A stretch of 64,000 bases of DNA. Source: Methylophaga sp. Lineage in GTDB: Bacteria > Pseudomonadota > Gammaproteobacteria > Nitrosococcales > Methylophagaceae. Every line of letters begins with the position of its first letter. Within the stretch, counting starts at the first letter, position 1. The notes below the pieces were generated by a model. The model was not told where the DNA came from, did not search any database, and saw nothing but the letters and a program-made list of their open reading frames with translations. The stretch covers positions 186,001 to 250,000 of the forward strand of contig DRHW01000002.1 in NCBI GenBank assembly GCA_011053005.1, in the 5' to 3' direction. The position numbers and the translations under genes are program-made. Positions 6,350-31,773 of the stretch are shown in pieces.

Positions 6350-7060
6350 CTATTGCTGACCAGCGGCCGCTTTATCCATATACCAATAATATTCGCCTTG
6401 TGGTGCTAAACGCTGAACAGGCAAACCCTGTACTGCATCTGTCGTAATATCACGCACAATATCTGCTTTGGCTTCACCAGCAATAAATACAATCACTTGT
6501 CTTGCCGCATTAATGGTTGGATACGTCATACTTACCCGCCATGACTGAAATTTATCAACATATAGACTGGTAGTCATCGTGGTCGCATCTAACGCCGCTG
6601 TGTCAGGAAACAACGAAGCAATATGACCATCAGGCCCTAATCCTAATAAGACAAGATCTAAAGGTTGGTCTTGCAATATCTCTTTCATCACTCGGCAATA
6701 GCGAATAGCCACTTCAGGTGCTACACCCTCTTCGGTCGGCATACGATGAACATTATCTTGTGGAATCGGTACGTGATTGATCATCGCTTCACGTGCCATT
6801 TTAAAATTACTTTCATCATGACTCGGTAATACACAACGCTCATCGCCAAAAAATAAATGAACACGAGTCCAATCTATTTGTTCGACATAGGGAGAGGTAG
6901 CTAGTTTTTGATACAAACCTTTTGGCGTTGAACCACCAGCAAGTGCAACATGAAATACACCTCGTTTTGCAATCGCAGATCGTGCTGCACTTACAAACTG
7001 TTCTGCTGCTGCCTCAATAAGGCTTGGCGTGTCGGCCAATATTTTCTGTGTTGCTTTCAT
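6350..7060 (-). CDS. pgl: 6-phosphogluconolactonase
   Basis: Pgl hydrolyses 6-phosphoglucono-1,5-lactone to 6-phosphogluconate. The 236 residues carry the DevB/NagB-like fold with FHVALAGGSTPKGLYQKL near residue 40, HLFFGDERCVLPSHDESNFKMAR in the middle, and LLGLGPDGHIASLFPDT as the active-site segment. It is the first gene of a minus-strand operon with glk, apaG and the yjdF-like gene. The zwf partner normally found beside it is not in the window. Confidence 0.92.
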   Translation of the reverse strand: MKATQKILADTPSLIEAAAEQFVSAARSAIAKRGVFHVALAGGSTPKGLYQKLATSPYVEQIDWTRVHLFFGDERCVLPSHDESNFKMAREAMINHVPIPQDNVHRMPTEEGVAPEVAIRYCRVMKEILQDQPLDLVLLGLGPDGHIASLFPDTAALDATTMTTSLYVDKFQSWRVSMTYPTINAARQVIVFIAGEAKADIVRDITTDAVQGLPVQRLAPQGEYYWYMDKAAAGQQ

Positions 7061-7466
7061 CTTTATCCTCTGTTTCTTTTCAAACCATTCATAATGCTAA
7101 TATTTTTAATTATTTATATCGCTAACTCGTGACCATCTAGCTGATGATAGAGGCAGGATAATAATGCTTTATAACTAAAAATGACTAATTCTATTTTCAA
7201 AAATAACGATCATCCAATCGGCATTAATCAAATAATGCCTTTTAAAATACCATCACATGTCATTATTTAGTAACTATTTAATGTGTTATTCGATGGCACG
7301 ATAAAATTAATGCCTCTTAATCTGATGCGCATACTTATTTAGTATCTTAGTTTCAGGATAAATGAAGTCATCATGTTGACGTTCAATTTGTTAGTGATAA
7401 ACAACGAAAATTGATAATAAAATAAACATCCGTCTTTATCATCATAATTTATAAGCAGTGCAAATA
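7061..7466. other. intergenic region, 5' side of pgl
   Basis: About 400 bases of A+T-rich sequence separate pgl from the tRNA-Ser terminator. I find no convincing ORF on either strand, no tRNA and no strong hairpin. The pgl operon promoter must lie here, but I cannot place it with confidence. A small RNA cannot be excluded. Confidence 0.4.
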
Positions 7467-7498
7467 ATAAAGCCTCTTAAAAAAGAGGCTTTATTATT
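7463..7498 (-). terminator. intrinsic terminator after tRNA-Ser
   Basis: A perfect inverted repeat with 16-base arms (7463-7478 and 7483-7498) encloses a 4-base AAAA loop. The G+C core is GCCTCTT/AAGAGGC and the outer arms are A/T, so on the minus strand the stem runs directly into a T-rich tail. It lies 5 bases beyond the tRNA-Ser 3' end and would end the birA-coaX-tRNA transcript. The symmetry makes it potentially bidirectional. Confidence 0.85.
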
Positions 7499-7503
7499 CT
7501 GTT

Positions 7504-7593
7504 TGGCGGAGAGCGAGGGATTCGAACCCTCGATAGGGATAAACCTATACACACTTTCCAGGCGTGCGCCTTCGGCCGCTCGGCCAGCTCTCC
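7504..7593 (-). tRNA. serT: tRNA-Ser (anticodon GGA)
   Basis: Read on the minus strand, the sequence begins GGAGAGCTGGCCGAG and ends GCTCTCC-G-CCA. It has a 7-bp acceptor stem, encoded CCA, the GTTCGAATC T-loop and a long variable arm typical of a class II tRNA. The anticodon loop CTGGAAA gives anticodon GGA, which reads UCC and UCU. The anticodon region CACGCCTGGAAAGTGTG is nearly the same as in E. coli tRNA-Ser(GGA). The symbol is a convenience label. Isoacceptor naming differs between species. Confidence 0.95.
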
Positions 7594-7650
7594 ATAAGGG
7601 TGCAGAAGATTACATTAGATTAATCAATCTGACAAATATCATTAACGAGG

Positions 7651-8868
7651 CTATTGATGCAGCTCAACAGTTTCTGCGATTTCTACTTCTTTAAGTGATT
7701 CAACAGATGTTGTTTCTTCAACCACTTTAGCTATTTCAGCTACTTTTGGTTTTTCAACTACTTTTGGTTTTTCAACTGATTTTGTTTCTTTAACTGCTTT
7801 TGGTTTTTCGACTGCTTTTGCTTCTTCAACTGCTTTTGTTTCTTCAACTGCTTTTGTTTCTTCAACTGCTTTTGTTTCTTCAACTGCTTTTGTTTCTTCA
7901 ACTGCTTTTGTTTCTTCAACTGCTTTTGTTTCTTCAACTGCTTTTGGTTTTTCAACTGCTTTTGTTTCTTCAACTGCTTTTGTTTCTTCAACTGCTTTTG
8001 GTTTTTCAACTGCTTTTGTTTCTTCAACTGCTTTTGGTTTTTCAGCTGCTATTTTGTCATCAGCTCCTTGAGTTGTTTCAACTGCTTTTTTTTCTTCAAC
8101 TGCCTCTGGCTTTCTAGGCTGTCTATCACCTTGTCGAGCATAATAACCTAAGCCTTTCAAAACGATATCTGGATAGTGAGCAATAAATGAAGGTAATAAA
8201 GGCATAACAAGTTCGGCATCACCACCTGTAATAATGAAACGTATACGATTATTAAACTGCTCATTTAAATCATCAACGATACGTTCAAGACTTGCTGTGA
8301 CCATATACAAAGTACCGCATTGCACAGCGCTTTGAGTATTAACGGCTAAAGTTTTAAACTCTTTCTCTTCTATTACGTCAGTTAGATTACTAGTATTGCT
8401 AGTCAACGCATGCCGCATTAATGTGATGCCGGGTAAAATCATTCCGCCTTGATGCGCACCATATTTAGTCACTACATCAATCGTAATGGCCGTGCCACAA
8501 TCAATAATACACGTCGCTTGTCTAGCATGTTGTCGTGCTGCAATTAATGCTAACCAACGATCAACACCTAATTTATCAGCTTGTTGATAAGCATTGGTTA
8601 CACCAAAACGCTTTTGTTCGCTGCTAATAAATTTAGGGGTGATTTGCCACTTTTTTTCTGACCAATCTGTCAAATGTTCAGCAATTTTGTCTCCACCAAC
8701 ATTCGATACGAAAACTGAGTCAATGTCAGTCAGCTCTTTCCATTCATTGGTAAATGCAGTTTTGATGCCGGTTTTTTTACGATCAAAGCTATGTGATTCT
8801 GTAAATCGACCTGAATCTAACGTTGTCCATTTAATACGGGAATTGCCAATATCTACTAATAATTTCAT
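7651..8868 (-). CDS. coaX: type III pantothenate kinase with C-terminal hexapeptide-repeat tail
   Basis: CoaX carries out the first step of coenzyme A synthesis, phosphorylating pantothenate with ATP. Residues 1-245 are a complete type III kinase: LLVDIGNSRIKW (phosphate binding), GVDRWLALIAAR, CIIDCGTAITIDVV and IITGGDAELV. The usual family length is about 250, but this protein has 405 residues. The extra 160 residues are about 20 copies of a six-residue unit, mostly AVEETK or AVEKPK, highly charged and probably helical or disordered. It overlaps birA by 4 bases (ATGA), so translation is coupled. The kinase call is secure. The role of the tail is unknown. Confidence 0.93.
   Translation of the reverse strand: MKLLVDIGNSRIKWTTLDSGRFTESHSFDRKKTGIKTAFTNEWKELTDIDSVFVSNVGGDKIAEHLTDWSEKKWQITPKFISSEQKRFGVTNAYQQADKLGVDRWLALIAARQHARQATCIIDCGTAITIDVVTKYGAHQGGMILPGITLMRHALTSNTSNLTDVIEEKEFKTLAVNTQSAVQCGTLYMVTASLERIVDDLNEQFNNRIRFIITGGDAELVMPLLPSFIAHYPDIVLKGLGYYARQGDRQPRKPEAVEEKKAVETTQGADDKIAAEKPKAVEETKAVEKPKAVEETKAVEETKAVEKPKAVEETKAVEETKAVEETKAVEETKAVEETKAVEETKAVEEAKAVEKPKAVKETKSVEKPKVVEKPKVAEIAKVVEETTSVESLKEVEIAETVELHQ
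7654..8049 (-). repeat. 18-bp in-frame tandem repeat in coaX
   Basis: About 20 tandem copies of an 18-base unit make up this segment. The plus-strand consensus is close to TGTTTCTTCAACTGCTTT. The central copies (about 7840-7940) are nearly identical, while those at both ends have diverged, as expected for a repeat growing by slippage or unequal exchange. Because the unit length is a multiple of three, copy-number change keeps the coaX frame, and other frames also stay open through it. It is a coding minisatellite, not a CRISPR array: there are no unique spacers. Confidence 0.95.
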
Positions 8869-9668
8869 GATGCAAACCTAATACTAACGTGGCTATTCGA
8901 TAAGGTGTGCAATGTATTGTCATACTCATAGCGTAATTCGCCCCGCTCAGTAATGCCTCGGGCAATAACATGGAGAGTATCTTTATCGCTGATTAGGTTA
9001 ACGGAATGATTAGCAAGTGCATCATATTGCGGCCATTGTGGAAGAAAGTCAGTTAAACCGCGGTGTTGAAAGTGTTCTAATGTTGTGATCATATTTTGAA
9101 TTATTTTTCCTGCCAGCCCATTTCTACAGGGTATCTCAGTACAAAGCTGTTGAAGACTGGTGGTAGGTTGATGAATTTTATTTTTCGTAGCAGTTGGAAG
9201 CTTAAAGTTAAGGCCAATGCCAACGACAGTATTTTGATTTTTACCGAATCGTGATTCTACTAGAATTCCGGCGAGCTTTTGTCTTTTATATAACACATCA
9301 TTCGGCCATTTCAACTGTAAGTCATTGATTCCTTCAGTTTTGAGGGTTTCAATCAAACTAATTCCCACAGCAATACTAAGTCCTTCACTGACCGTTTCTG
9401 CGGGAAATGGCCAAAAAATCGATAAATATAAGTTGCCAACTGAAGGCGATTGCCATGGGTCACCTCGTCGACCTCGCCCCGCCGTTTGTGTTTCACTAAG
9501 ACAAATTGCTGGCGAAATCTGCCCTTCGCTAAAGCGTTGCCACAAAATGTCATTGGTTGAAGCTACGGATTGATGAATGAAAATATCGTCCAGTTTTCGG
9601 CGTGTATTGGGTTCAATGGCTGCTTCAATGGCGGTCAATGATAAAGGCTGAAAGTCGTGTATCGTCAA
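8865..9668 (-). CDS. birA: biotin--[acetyl-CoA-carboxylase] ligase, no HTH domain
   Basis: BirA joins biotin to the carrier lysine of acetyl-CoA carboxylase through biotinoyl-AMP. The catalytic domain is complete: SVASTNDILW, TAGRGRRGDPW (adenylate binding), LKWPNDVLY, KLAGILVESR and VVGIGLNFK. The protein has 267 residues, against about 320 for E. coli BirA. The roughly 60-residue N-terminal winged-helix domain that represses the bio operon is missing, because the ligase domain begins within the first 30 residues. This BirA should therefore be enzyme only. It is followed immediately by coaX, a common pairing. Confidence 0.93.
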   Translation of the reverse strand: MTIHDFQPLSLTAIEAAIEPNTRRKLDDIFIHQSVASTNDILWQRFSEGQISPAICLSETQTAGRGRRGDPWQSPSVGNLYLSIFWPFPAETVSEGLSIAVGISLIETLKTEGINDLQLKWPNDVLYKRQKLAGILVESRFGKNQNTVVGIGLNFKLPTATKNKIHQPTTSLQQLCTEIPCRNGLAGKIIQNMITTLEHFQHRGLTDFLPQWPQYDALANHSVNLISDKDTLHVIARGITERGELRYEYDNTLHTLSNSHVSIRFAS

Positions 9669-9836
9669 AATATTAAGCTGTTTATATAAAAGTAAGTTGC
9701 TTAGTCTATCAATTGCACACGACTATTGTGTACTTAAATACGCAATAGTTTTAGGCCATTAATGTTAAACTTTATCGCTTAATCACTACTTAATATGCTG
9801 ATAGGTAACAATAAATGATAAGCACTAATATTTAAT

Positions 9837-10601
9837 ATGAATCTTATCGATAGCCATTGCCATCTGGACTTTCAAACCTTTGATGTTGATCGTGCAGAGA
9901 TTTTAGCTCATTGCCAACAGCTAAAAATCAGCCATATTGTCGTTGTTGGCGTTATGGCAAATACTTGGCAACGTTTACTTGAGCTTTGTGACCAATCCGA
10001 TTTATTACATCCCGCATTAGGTTTACATCCTTTATTTATGGGTGAACATAAAGCAGAACATTTGGCACAGCTAAAAAGCTTAACACTCACTTCTCGCCCT
10101 GTTGCCATCGGTGAAATCGGTTTGGATTTTTATCTGCCTGAACATGATAAACAAGCACAAATCGACCTATTCACCGCACAGTTGAATATCGCCCAACAAG
10201 CCGAATTACCCGTATTACTTCATGTTCGTAAGGCACATGACGAAACTATAAGCTTGCTTAAAAAACACCGTGTCGTTGGCGGTATTGTTCATGCGTTTAA
10301 TGGCAGTCTGCAACAAGCAGAACACTACCAAAAACTAGGGTTTGTATTCGGTATCGGCGGTGTTATTACTCATACTAAAGCAACACGTTTACGAACATTA
10401 TTCAGCCAATTGCCGCTATCCAGCATTGTATTAGAAACTGATGCGCCTGATATGCCTTTGTCTGAGATGCAAGATTCTAGAAATACTCCGGAAAATATTC
10501 CTAAAATACTTGCCGAATTGGCATCGCTTCGTTCTGAAAGCGAACAACAAATTGCTACAATAACCACTGATAATGCAAAACGAATTTTAAATTTGAAATG
10601 A
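9837..10601 (+). CDS. TatD family metal-dependent hydrolase
   Basis: The 254 residues form a TIM-barrel hydrolase of the TatD family, with metal-binding IDSHCHLDFQTF at the N terminus, AIGEIGLDFYLPEH, LPVLLHVRKAHDET, GGIVHAFNGSLQQA and VLETDAPDMPL. Family members are 3'-5' exonucleases or other phosphoesterases. The paralogue cannot be told from sequence alone, though the short AFNGS region resembles the YjjV group. The stop overlaps the next gene by 4 bases (ATGA), and a run of plus-strand housekeeping genes begins here. Confidence 0.9.
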   Translation: MNLIDSHCHLDFQTFDVDRAEILAHCQQLKISHIVVVGVMANTWQRLLELCDQSDLLHPALGLHPLFMGEHKAEHLAQLKSLTLTSRPVAIGEIGLDFYLPEHDKQAQIDLFTAQLNIAQQAELPVLLHVRKAHDETISLLKKHRVVGGIVHAFNGSLQQAEHYQKLGFVFGIGGVITHTKATRLRTLFSQLPLSSIVLETDAPDMPLSEMQDSRNTPENIPKILAELASLRSESEQQIATITTDNAKRILNLK

Positions 10602-27273: not shown

Positions 27274-27783
27274 TTATTCCAAACCAACTTGCCAAAGCTC
27301 ACTATGCGCTTCTACGATGTCACCAGATGTTGCATCCACTTCAATTTTCATTTGTTGACCACCCATCGTCGTATCAATATCAAATTCATAAGTCGCTGCG
27401 CCGTTAGACTCAATTTCATACTCAACTTCAACGATTTCACCGGGGTAAACGGCTAATGCTGTTTTACGAGCTTCGGCTTCATTTACTTTTGCCTTCGATT
27501 TAAATAATGGATGATTTACATTATCGACTTCGCGCTCAATTTCAGAAATAACGACCCGATGGGCATCACATGATATATCCCAATCCGAACCATCTATGCC
27601 ACGAATATCAAACTCATAAACATGATCACTTTCTACGCTTATCATTTCGACTTTGACCACTTGCCCTGGTCTTTCAACTAAGGCTGCTGCCAAACATTTT
27701 TCAAAATAATGTGGTTTTTCTTCAGCCAATACACTATTAGACATAAGCATTAACACAGCAGACAGGATGACTATTTTTTTCAC
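27274..27783 (-). CDS. exported tandem PepSY-domain protein
   Basis: The 169 residues start with a clear signal peptide (residues 1-20, cleavage after SVLA). The mature protein contains two PepSY-like repeats: about 24-95 ([37 protein letters not shown]) and about 98-165 ([46 protein letters not shown]). Asp and Glu are abundant in both. Two Cys residues may form a disulphide in the first repeat. It lies about 107 bases after the TonB-dependent receptor gene on the same strand, though a terminator-like hairpin separates them. Small periplasmic tandem-PepSY proteins beside TonB receptors include a lanthanide-binding protein of a methylotroph, so metal binding is a reasonable but unproven guess. 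Confidence 0.8.
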
Positions 27784-27824
27784 TCTTAATCTCCAAAATA
27801 TAGTTAATCACCATTTAGTAGCTA

Positions 27825-27865
27825 TAAAAAAACCCAAGTCACTGATAAACACAATGACTTGGGTT
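27825..27865 (-). terminator. intrinsic terminator of the TonB-dependent receptor gene
   Basis: Arms at 27831-27841 and 27855-27865 (AACCCAAGTCA pairing with TGACTTGGGTT) enclose a 13-base loop. On the minus strand the stem runs into a run of T residues (27832-27826). It lies 24 bases after the receptor stop and just before the PepSY gene, so it would reduce transcription from receptor into PepSY gene. Confidence 0.82.
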
Positions 27866-27889
27866 AGTTTTCAAGCTATTTTTAAATGA

Positions 27890-30238
27890 TTACATTGATA
27901 CTTTAATACCGATCCAGCCAGCGCGAGGCGCACCGGCACCAACGAAGCGAGGATCTTCAAAATCAAACCCTGGCGCTTCATCTGGTTCACCATATAAACC
28001 AAATGTTTCATACTCGCTATCAAAGAGGTTATCAACTTTTGCAAAGAACTGCACATTGTCATTAAGTTTATAACGACTATGTAAGTTCACAACTTTGTAT
28101 GCACTAATCTTCTTGTCCTCATTAGCTTCATCGCCTCTATAGTACTGACTAGAGTGATATGAAGCTGTTAAGCCAAGAGAGAACTGTTGATTAAAGTGGT
28201 AGTCTGCTCCAATTTTCACATTATGAGCAGGAATTCCCGGCAAACGATCGCCTTTGTTAACAGTAAAGGTTTCTAAATTATCTTCTACTTCACGAGCATA
28301 TTGGAATTTATCTTCAAATGTAGCACGTACATAAGAGTAATTTGCAAACCAATCAAATTTATCAACTTCACCAAATAGACCTAGCTCTAATCCAGCTCGA
28401 GCCGTCTTGTCAATATTATCAAAATTACCAGTTCTTAATCGTGGATCAGCTGGATCATCTTCAGTGGCCGGGAAGAAGAACAAGTCATCCTTTAGCTCAG
28501 TGTAATAAACATTAGCATTCCAATTAACACCAGTATTGTTTCCTCGTAGGCCGGCTTCAACGGTTCTTGCAACAACGTCATCTAACGGTGGATCTGCTAA
28601 AAATGAGTTAGGTAATGCACAGCTGATTTGCTCTGCTCGAGAATCATCTTGTGCACATGTCAACTCTGAAGGGCTTGGCGCACGGTTTGACTCGCTGTAG
28701 CTACCATATACGCTTAGATTATCTTGAATTGCATAGGTTAAGCCAACCGAAGGATTAAAACGTGTGAATACATGGGTATCACCTGTTTCGTTCAAATTCT
28801 GCTCTCCCCCCTTACTCGAACCTGAAATATCAATTGCGATACGGTTATAACGTCCACCTACAGTTAATGCAAGTTTCTCGGTCAACGACATAGTATCGGT
28901 GAAAAACAAACTAAACGTTTCAGTTTCAATATCACCATCAACAATTGTTTCATCAATTATAAAACCGGTACCATTTGTGCCTCGGCTCGAAGTAAATTGT
29001 GCTACTTCAGATTGAGAAGTATATTTAACATCAGAACGATCGTAACTGGCGCCCACAATTAACTGATTTTCTTTGCCAAATAAATTCTTAAGAAACGTTG
29101 ATTGTAATCCAAAACCATAACTATCTTGCTTCGTTTCACTAGTATTATTCAGAGCCACATCATCGTCATCGGCAAAACCAAGAGCAGCAGCATTGTTTGT
29201 GAGTATTTCGTCATCGCCATCAAAAACACCATCTACACCATCTTCATCTTCACCAAGATCATTACCGATAACGGATAACTCTGAACCATCGCCGTTAAAT
29301 GTTGAACGATCACTAGAACGATAATACGTATTTGCTGACAGCATCACTTGGTCATTAAGCCAGTGCGAACCATTCAACGTAAACATTCGGAGCTCATTTT
29401 GAGTATTATCAGGATGAGTAAATACGGCTTTACGATCCATATCAACAAGCTCAACAGGCGAAGCACCATTACCATTAAGATCACTATCAACCAGAGTGAT
29501 ACCTAAATCTAATGACGTGCCTTCATTTCTATAACTTAAATTAGAGAAAAATTGCTCTACGCGGGACGGAGAAAAGTCACGCCAACCATCTTCTTTGGTA
29601 ATTGCACCTGTAGCAAAATAACCAAATTTACCATCGTTACCACCACTTGAGACAGTCATAGAATCACGACCAAATGATCCAGTATAAGCTTCTAACTCAT
29701 GACCTTCATGCGTAAAACCATTTTTGGTTTGAATTGATAAAGCACCGCCCAATGTATTCAAACCAAAAAGAGGATTAGAGCCTGGCATTAAATTCATGCT
29801 GGCAATAGCTGATTCAGGAATCAATTCAAAATTAATTGCATCTCCAAAAGGTTCGTTAGCACGAACACCATCAATATATACAGACAATCCTTGTGAGTTA
29901 CCTACCAAAGGAGAAGCAGTAAAACCGCGATATTTCAAATCAGGCTGGAAGGGGTTATTTTGTGCTTGATTTAAACTGACGCTGCCCAATGTTTTATTCA
30001 TAAAATCAGATAAATCTAGCGCCTGAACGCGCTCTAAATCTTCTGACGTCGCAGATTGAACATTACTAGCAATCATATCCGCAGGTAAGCCAACACCATG
30101 CAATGGTGTTGTTCCTATGACTTGAATATTGCTTAACTCAACATTGTCTTCTGCAGCAAAAGCAGTACCACTCATCATTGCTGAAATCAGCATGAGTGAT
30201 AACGCTTTGCGTTTAGATGGTATATACATAATTCGCAT
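27890..30238 (-). CDS. TonB-dependent outer-membrane receptor
   Basis: The 782 residues have a signal peptide (about 1-29, cleavage at AFAAED), a TonB-box-like segment (NVELSNIQVIG), a plug domain (about 50-175, with NPLFGLNTLGGALSIQTKNGF) and a 22-strand barrel ending in the terminal Met preceded by aromatic and Ile residues (GWIGIKVSM). The plug is of the NQAQNNPFQPDLKYRGF type. Residues 315-362 form a very acidic loop with an EF-hand-like run (LGEDEDGVDGVFDGDDE), a possible metal site. Substrate unknown: no siderophore or cobalamin genes are nearby and no riboswitch is seen upstream. An exported tandem-PepSY gene follows. Confidence 0.9.
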   Translation of the reverse strand: MRIMYIPSKRKALSLMLISAMMSGTAFAAEDNVELSNIQVIGTTPLHGVGLPADMIASNVQSATSEDLERVQALDLSDFMNKTLGSVSLNQAQNNPFQPDLKYRGFTASPLVGNSQGLSVYIDGVRANEPFGDAINFELIPESAIASMNLMPGSNPLFGLNTLGGALSIQTKNGFTHEGHELEAYTGSFGRDSMTVSSGGNDGKFGYFATGAITKEDGWRDFSPSRVEQFFSNLSYRNEGTSLDLGITLVDSDLNGNGASPVELVDMDRKAVFTHPDNTQNELRMFTLNGSHWLNDQVMLSANTYYRSSDRSTFNGDGSELSVIGNDLGEDEDGVDGVFDGDDEILTNNAAALGFADDDDVALNNTSETKQDSYGFGLQSTFLKNLFGKENQLIVGASYDRSDVKYTSQSEVAQFTSSRGTNGTGFIIDETIVDGDIETETFSLFFTDTMSLTEKLALTVGGRYNRIAIDISGSSKGGEQNLNETGDTHVFTRFNPSVGLTYAIQDNLSVYGSYSESNRAPSPSELTCAQDDSRAEQISCALPNSFLADPPLDDVVARTVEAGLRGNNTGVNWNANVYYTELKDDLFFFPATEDDPADPRLRTGNFDNIDKTARAGLELGLFGEVDKFDWFANYSYVRATFEDKFQYAREVEDNLETFTVNKGDRLPGIPAHNVKIGADYHFNQQFSLGLTASYHSSQYYRGDEANEDKKISAYKVVNLHSRYKLNDNVQFFAKVDNLFDSEYETFGLYGEPDEAPGFDFEDPRFVGAGAPRAGWIGIKVSM

Positions 30239-30393: not shown

Positions 30394-31773
30394 TTAGAAC
30401 CAAGCAAGGCTTTTATGCAAGGTGACGACATGACCAATAATAACGAGTGTTGGCGCAATAGGTTGTTCGCGCTCTGCAACATTCGGTAATTCAGCAATAG
30501 TACTGATCCACACTTTTTGATTTTCTGTCGTTCCTTGTTGCACTAAAGCAGCAGGCGTATCGGCGGGTAAACCATGTTTCAATAATTGTTGACTCAAGGT
30601 TGGTAACCCAGCTAACCCCATATATACAACAACCGTTTGTCTCGGTTGGACTAAGGCTGACCAATTCAAATCTAACTCGCCTTCTTTCAACTGTCCGGTT
30701 ACAAAGATGCAACTTTGTGAATAATCACGATGAGTAAGAGGAATACCCGCATAACTTGCACAACCTGATGCGGCAGTAATTCCCGGCACAACTTGGAAAG
30801 GTATCTTCGCCTCGGCAAGGGTGGCAATTTCTTCTCCGCCACGACCAAAGATAAATGGATCACCACCTTTCAGCCGTAATACACGCTTGCCTTGTTGAGC
30901 ATGTTCTAACAATAATTGATTAATTTCATCCTGACGGACCGCATGCCAAGCACGTTGTTTGCCGACATAAATCAGTTCAGCTTCACGGCGAACTAAATCT
31001 AACACTTCTTTGCTGACTAAACGATCATAAAACACCACATCAGCTTGCTGCATCAACCTGAGTGCTTTGAAAGTCAGCAATTCAGGATCGCCCGGCCCAG
31101 CTCCTACAAGATACACTTCACCTCGTTGTAATTCGACATCATCGTTGTTTGCAAGCAACGCGTTTAATGTTTGTTCGCCTAATTCATCACGACCTGCCAG
31201 TACATGATCAGCCACTTTGCCTTGCAGCACAGTTTCCCAAAACCGGCGTCGCATCGCCAGCGTCGATAATTTCTCTTTTACTACATCGCGATAACGCCCT
31301 ACTAATTCAGCGAGTCGACCATAACTAGGTGGAATTAACGTTTCCAATCTTGCTCTTAATTGGCGAGCCAAAATAGGTGATTGACCACCGCTTGATATCG
31401 CAACCACAATCGGCGAACGATCGAGAATCGAAGGCAAAATAAAATCACATAACTCGGGACTATCCACCACATTAACTAAAATATTTTTGGCTTTTGCTTG
31501 ATCATAAACATCGCGATTAACCGCTTCATCATTAGTCGCGGCAATCACTAATAGCTGATCAGATAATTGTTCGCCAATAAATAAACTGTTCAACCAAACA
31601 GCTTCACCTGCATCGATCATTGATTTTGTTGATACTGATATTTCAGGCGCTACTATCGTTACATTTGCATTCGCTTTTCTTAATAATCCAGCTTTGCGAG
31701 CGGCAATTTCACCACCGCCTACAACAAGACATGCTCGATCTTTAAGATCAACAAATAGCGGTAAATATTCCAT
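30394..31773 (-). CDS. cysG: siroheme synthase (trifunctional CysG)
   Basis: CysG converts uroporphyrinogen III to siroheme, the cofactor of sulphite and nitrite reductases. The 459 residues contain the N-terminal dehydrogenase/ferrochelatase module (ACLVVGGGEIAARKAGLL; AISSGGQSPILARQLR, with the regulatory Ser) and the C-terminal methyltransferase (EVYLVGAGPGDPELLTFKALR; KGGDPFIFGRGGEE; VVPGITAASGCASYAGIPLTHR). Both modules look intact. It follows the DUF1223 gene by 8 bases and ends the pyrG-to-cysG run. Confidence 0.95.
   Translation of the reverse strand: MEYLPLFVDLKDRACLVVGGGEIAARKAGLLRKANANVTIVAPEISVSTKSMIDAGEAVWLNSLFIGEQLSDQLLVIAATNDEAVNRDVYDQAKAKNILVNVVDSPELCDFILPSILDRSPIVVAISSGGQSPILARQLRARLETLIPPSYGRLAELVGRYRDVVKEKLSTLAMRRRFWETVLQGKVADHVLAGRDELGEQTLNALLANNDDVELQRGEVYLVGAGPGDPELLTFKALRLMQQADVVFYDRLVSKEVLDLVRREAELIYVGKQRAWHAVRQDEINQLLLEHAQQGKRVLRLKGGDPFIFGRGGEEIATLAEAKIPFQVVPGITAASGCASYAGIPLTHRDYSQSCIFVTGQLKEGELDLNWSALVQPRQTVVVYMGLAGLPTLSQQLLKHGLPADTPAALVQQGTTENQKVWISTIAELPNVAEREQPIAPTLVIIGHVVTLHKSLAWF

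Follow-up and report, generated by a model that had tools for sequence, protein, structure and literature searches.

The closest described counterpart of the small protein discussed here is LanPepSY (LanP) of Methylobacillus flagellatus (Hemmann, 2023, as described in PMC11845868 and PMC12482762), which is credited with up to four lanthanide sites and with being the earliest PepSY protein for which lanthanide binding was demonstrated (PMC11845868). LanPepSY has been described as La-induced, and E. coli cells expressing the protein did not bind more La or Tb (PMC11899968). On the receptor side, the known systems are LutH of Methylorubrum extorquens (PMC7391723) and LanA, a TonB receptor that Methylotuvimicrobium buryatense requires for its lanthanide switch (Groom, 2019, as cited in PMC8788690 and PMC12482762). 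Other PepSY proteins include UipA, which binds uranium and iron according to the title of a paper cited in PMC12714742, and the periplasmic DbfQ of V. cholerae, which controls its kinase; compared with chance, PepSY proteins are strongly over-represented in the vicinity of two-component systems (PMC12714742). The gene pair described below bears on how lanthanides pass the outer membrane and get to XoxF in bacteria other than those with the Methylobacterium lut system.

Here we describe a TonB receptor and a tandem-PepSY protein encoded side by side in a 64,000-nucleotide stretch of DNA (the window), which is C2:186001-250000 of a 2.89-Mb genome that is 99.96% complete. Among relatives with a name, the closest are metagenome-derived Methylophaga genomes, with receptors up to 84% and PepSY proteins ∼66% identical. 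We consider it likely that the two genes form a pair for lanthanide acquisition in a methylotroph of the Methylophaga type, in which the receptor and the acidic periplasmic protein, judged from sequence, very probably capture rare-earth metals for rare-earth-dependent methanol enzymes. This lanthanide reading, raised as a candidate in the first-pass annotation, is largely supported by the likeness of the small protein to LanPepSY, by the DYD-type XoxF enzymes of the host, and by receptor relatives near xoxF, LanP and lanmodulin genes. The pair is conserved through the host family and extends the recently discovered LanPepSY/LutH-like kind, rather than founding a new system.

Both open reading frames lie on the minus strand, and their order, receptor and then an exported protein with two PepSY domains, was confirmed by the letters of the window and by Pfam. 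The receptor (30238..27890, 782 aa) is a TonB-dependent outer-membrane protein by Pfam, placed in a LutH-like superfamily by its tree and its neighbourhoods. Directly after the signal peptide, residues 33–42 form a TonB-box-like stretch, VELSNIQVIG (30113..30142, minus strand), a probable assignment from sequence reading and conservation in the receptor alignment, followed by the plug domain at residues 56–166 (29741..30073, minus strand; PF07715, 1e-10) and the TonB barrel (8.5e-51). The PepSY gene (27783..27274, 169 aa) begins with GTG, preceded by a ribosome-binding-site-like GGAG (27791..27794, minus strand), and its product has an apparent signal peptide at residues 1–20 (27724..27783, minus strand), assigned by inspection; model confidence is below pLDDT 50 at residues 1–22. 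The protein is of the ∼19 kDa exported class, as first noted. By sequence reading only, a cysG-like (siroheme-synthase-like) gene lies upstream of the receptor at 30394-31773, and a convergent nadC lies downstream of the pair.

The small protein carries two PepSY stretches (Pfam, 2.5e-16). Repeat 1 covers residues ∼28–80 (27544..27702, minus strand; from domain profiles, model and alignment) and includes conserved Cys30 and Cys72, and repeat 2 covers residues 99–158 (27310..27489, minus strand; PF03413 and model). The mature protein is small and acidic, with 149 aa, 16.7 kDa, a pI of 4.4, and 33 Asp/Glu vs 13 Lys/Arg. A phmmer search of PDB sequences returned a single close family, 9vy3-9vya (8 entries, 21 chains, E 8.6e-50), with 61% identity to 9vy3 over 143 residues. 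Judged only by its length, C-terminus and style of name, 9vy3 is probably LanPepSY: its 153-residue chain has a C-terminal Glu, in line with the LanPepSY construct D24-E175 (152 residues with a Glu end; PMC11899968) plus one residue. In an alignment of 60 family sequences including 9vy3, Cys30, Cys72 and 14 acidic positions (46, 57, 59, 81, 83, 85, 121, 123, 133, 135, 148, 158, 162 and 169) are conserved, all of them common to 9vy3. A structure model (pLDDT 77) folds as two alpha-beta repeats, and on its predicted strands conserved acidic residues alternate (81/83/85, 121/123 and 133/135), so that their side chains would face one side. These conserved positions may bind Ln3+.

A fold search with the PepSY model returned the PepSY proteins 4exr, YpmB, YpeB and UipA (7ath), and the 9vy3 series was absent from its matches. 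UipA and DbfQ have the PepSY fold in common with the window protein but neither is a close sequence match, and DbfQ, with its single domain, has a kinase as its target. LanPepSY is the better comparison, as an exported tandem-PepSY protein of a methylotroph of the same ∼19 kDa size, with the acidic residues and cysteines of its probable structure kept in the window protein, and with a window host that resembles lanthanide-using methylotrophs in having four DYD XoxF. The window protein differs in coming from Methylophagaceae, a bacterial family in which 32 of 34 loci pair the gene with one for a receptor. Together, these comparisons support the window protein as a member of a LanPepSY-like family. 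The open literature searched contained no report of LanP-like proteins in this lineage, in agreement with the suggestion that such a system had not yet been described there. One paper reports plasmid-borne LanP in methanotrophs; the plasmid collection searched here gave no LanP match.

Five methanol/ethanol quinoproteins of the host genome score above cut-off, four with a WDYD motif and one with WDYA. The Asp of the DYD motif marks the lanthanide type (XoxF), and DYA the calcium MxaF type. By these motifs the host, whose methylotrophy had so far been suspected, carries four XoxF and one MxaF and is a methylotroph of the Methylophaga type. None of the xoxF genes is adjacent to the receptor. Two further receptor relatives are encoded in the host genome (L083 1862-7062, and L084 4559-7692 with L085 3-1745), with 44–46% identity over residues ∼40–317 of the window receptor. 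They lie behind ECF-sigma- and FecR-like genes, resembling signal-transducing TonB receptors, and one of them is apparently split across two contigs.

The association with quinoproteins extends beyond the host. Among 369 evenly drawn Gammaproteobacteria of many families, with a receptor family threshold of E 1e-60, a quinoprotein alcohol dehydrogenase was found in 35 of the 36 receptor-bearing genomes (p 1.6e-30) and in 17 of the 18 PepSY-bearing genomes (p 1.9e-13), and 15 of these 18 also carried the receptor (p 2e-14), with p values that treat related genomes as independent. Within the host family, the receptor was detected in 42 of 57 genomes and methanol dehydrogenase in 42, with the two calls in agreement in 49. 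Six receptor-bearing family genomes that first appeared to lack XoxF were rejected as counter-examples: G160, G415, G409 and G372 carry pieces of XoxF, in several cases at the end of a contig, and a more distant XoxF with DYD is present in G381 and G388. The receptor-bearing genomes G391 and G411, where XoxF is seemingly absent, are 73% and 55% complete, respectively. The broken multi-copy xoxF of G160, G415, G409 and G372 also illustrates how whole-gene presence/absence surveys of draft genomes would miss XoxF.

The receptor is not captured by models of known specificity, as no specific NCBIfam model for siderophore, B12, copper or PQQ receptors reaches its cut-off with the window protein. 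The scores are 141 bits vs 223.5 for the TonB siderophore model (TIGR01783), 90.9 vs 599.7 for the BtuB/TonB-B12 model (TIGR01779), 20.6 vs 472 for the TonB copper model (TIGR01778), and 87 vs 1200 for PqqU (NF041535). The first-pass description of a receptor with no siderophore or cobalamin context needs a small correction as to cobalamin, given the cysG-like gene upstream, but the receptor itself falls far below the BtuB models. Of the findings named there as refuting, neither a genome devoid of methylotrophy genes nor a receptor assigned to a known siderophore or vitamin type was obtained. An AlphaFold model of the receptor (pLDDT 37) was unusable for a fold search. In the receptor tree, a group of 47 rows with support of 94/95 holds all of the rows linked to XoxF, LanP and LanM, and six other TonB receptors fall outside. 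The window row sits within its own family inside this group, so by its placement the receptor is LutH-like and grouped with the xoxF- and LanP-linked receptors.

Gene neighbourhoods tie this receptor group to lanthanide enzymes and proteins. In other families, the receptor lies beside a DYD xoxF in G066, G302 and G342, at distances of 218, 358 and 250 bp, respectively. It also lies within 4 kb of xoxF in G241, in G376 and at another locus of G066. About 0.05 receptor-xoxF neighbours would be expected, taking 36 genomes of 3 Mb with about two xoxF each and 1 kb on either side. In G342, xoxF, the receptor, the PepSY (LanP) gene and a MoxY-type histidine kinase, 35% identical to the kinase upstream of the host's mxaF, fall within 10 kb. 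On plasmids, a receptor relative is found beside a DYD (Ln-type) quinoprotein alcohol dehydrogenase and pqqABCDE in B. multivorans (Burkholderia), and in an alcohol dehydrogenase cluster with DFD in Sphingobium and Novosphingobium. A Methylobacterium nodulans plasmid has the order receptor relative, response regulator, lanmodulin, with the lanmodulin call based on PDB 6mi5 (5e-38) and the NCBIfam LanM model (175 bits, cut-off 135). This arrangement, with the receptor relative two genes from lanmodulin, recalls lutH beside lanM; like LutH, the window receptor is a TonB receptor of a lanthanide-linked superfamily. The likeness to LutH has limits, as the window receptor is just 32% identical to the M. 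nodulans relative and lies outside a lut cluster, with no lut ABC transporter genes or lanM adjoining. LanA is similar in that it is a gammaproteobacterial TonB receptor from the same broad host group.

The same neighbourhoods could be read differently, with PQQ, copper, an iron chelate or some other cargo tied to methanol oxidation entering through the receptor, and with the PepSY protein as a binder of that cargo or of another metal. PQQ import would also explain receptor relatives beside quinoprotein and pqq genes, PqqU is itself a TonB receptor with a weak match to the window protein, the best-scoring generic model is the siderophore subfamily, and a receptor relative in Ideonella lies near copper genes. 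We regard this reading as improbable, given that all four specific models fall far short of their cut-offs and that adjacency to lanmodulin and LanP is left unexplained by import of PQQ or copper. A PQQ receptor in particular was set aside on the PqqU score and this adjacency, together with the pqq genes of genomes such as B. multivorans, in which PQQ synthesis is encoded beside the receptor gene. The Ideonella receptor also falls inside the 47-row group, which indicates that the receptor superfamily need not be uniform. On that plasmid of Ideonella dechloratans (L157, 7839-17924), MbnP, MbnM and a further TonB receptor are encoded at 4–8 kb from the receptor relative, and this region of copper and methanobactin-type genes may represent a copper branch of the superfamily.

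Within the host family, the receptor gene is directly upstream of a type-A PepSY gene on the same strand, at a distance of 55–145 bp, in 32 of 34 loci; one of the two exceptions is a truncated locus. The genes downstream of the pair vary, with nadC in the window and gapdh in L001, and since adjacency is kept while these flanks differ, the pairing is not due to chance. Neighbours by history without joint action would be another account, and the terminator found in most family loci, along with the 14 family genomes that have the receptor without a type-A PepSY gene, would suit it. Such an account is very improbable in view of the retained adjacency beside changing flanks and of receptor-PepSY proximity arising independently, with altered order or strand, in three other families (G235, where the genes are divergent, G085 and G342). 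The 14 genomes do imply that the PepSY partner is dispensable or accessory. For a lanthanide acquisition pair, the conserved pairing is a genetic reason to link LanP with uptake, and its conservation in a marine methylotroph family makes it a small testable unit.

An intrinsic-terminator-like hairpin, with a 14-bp stem followed by a T-run (27865-27831, minus strand), separates the two genes, and a hairpin search found similar ones in 22 of 31 family intergenic gaps, compared with 0.28 in shuffled sequences. With this strong terminator between them, the neighbouring genes are probably regulated separately and are probably not one simple transcript. Expression of lutH in M. extorquens falls fourfold through repression by La (PMC7391723), and by analogy the terminator would allow lutH-like repression of the receptor and LanPepSY-like induction of the binding protein by La in opposite directions. 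Receptor levels would then fall and binding protein levels rise when lanthanide is plentiful. A riboswitch search upstream of the receptor, covering the window and six related loci, found none, and eight sequences upstream of receptor genes had no conserved block that would suggest a shared operator. In Methylophaga nitratireducenticrescens, c-di-GMP riboswitches are reported before pqqA and before a TonB receptor (PMC12530212, Table 4).

The proposed path of the metal begins with the receptor, which would use TonB energy to move Ln3+, either free or as a chelate, through the outer membrane. In the periplasm, the tandem-PepSY protein would bind Ln3+ with the acidic side chains that its two PepSY sheets carry, and may buffer the metal or hand it on to the four XoxF methanol dehydrogenases; the storage role suggested by the first-pass annotation would correspond to this step. 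The main rival for the function of the PepSY protein is sensing, in which it would act as a signalling cofactor that modulates the kinase of the lanthanide switch, much as DbfQ does, and not as a buffer or chaperone. Beyond the known abundance of PepSY proteins near two-component systems and the control of a kinase by DbfQ (PMC12714742), a host paralogue adjoins an operon of PepSY, response regulator and histidine kinase genes, the paralogue in G376 and G418 adjoins regulator and kinase genes similar to the MoxY-type pair of the host, and the PepSY gene of G342 has a MoxY-type kinase in its vicinity. The window pair itself has no adjoining two-component genes, and the tandem form and conserved acidic residues match LanPepSY, a measured lanthanide binder, rather than the single-domain DbfQ. 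Sensing in place of buffering is therefore rather unlikely, and as sensing is compatible with metal binding, it is partly a refinement of the lanthanide-binding role.

The host paralogue is a tandem-PepSY protein encoded at C2:123655-124080 (within L058, which is G000:C2:114000-133000, 6757-10192, minus strand) and is 46% identical to the window protein. Downstream of it are genes for a single-PepSY protein, an OmpR-type regulator and a histidine kinase, and the set may be an operon for sensing metal in the periplasm. Two other genomes of the family (L214 2365-5001 and L215 3835-8351) have the paralogue near genes for a LuxR-type regulator and for a MoxY-like kinase of the type upstream of the host's mxaF, an arrangement that suggests a part for LanP-like proteins in the lanthanide switch.

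A further feature of the receptor is a carboxylate-rich loop at residues 316–364 (29147..29293, minus strand), with 16 Asp/Glu and no Lys/Arg. Per residue, receptors of this clade are more acidic here than in their other loops (−0.33 vs −0.12 in the window receptor), and the median net charge is −16 in the clade of the window receptor vs −5 outside (p 4e-5), with a few rows outside the clade also carrying acidic loops. The LanM-linked receptor of M. nodulans is without the acidic loop, which is another difference from the LutH side. Short turns alternate with long loops in the low-confidence model, and on this basis the acidic loop is probably extracellular. Within this clade, the loop may help gather the cation, which provides a clear prediction. 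A search of the host genome for the IucA/IucC siderophore synthetase family, the type used for methylolanthanin, found no member. With the clade's loop nearly devoid of Lys/Arg and the host without IucA/IucC, direct capture of Ln3+ is conceivable, though less likely than not. The fuller idea, that the acidic-loop receptor subfamily captures lanthanides without a dedicated lanthanophore and passes them directly to the adjacent LanP, in a metallophore-free relay from outer membrane to periplasm, is tentative and on balance doubtful. At the position of the acidic loop of the window receptor, L127 (7117-9444), L129 (7199-9508) and their sister rows have an extremely acidic loop with a conserved Cys pair, for example DDSDFEECEEEENEGFICEEEEGGEEGEEEEEE.
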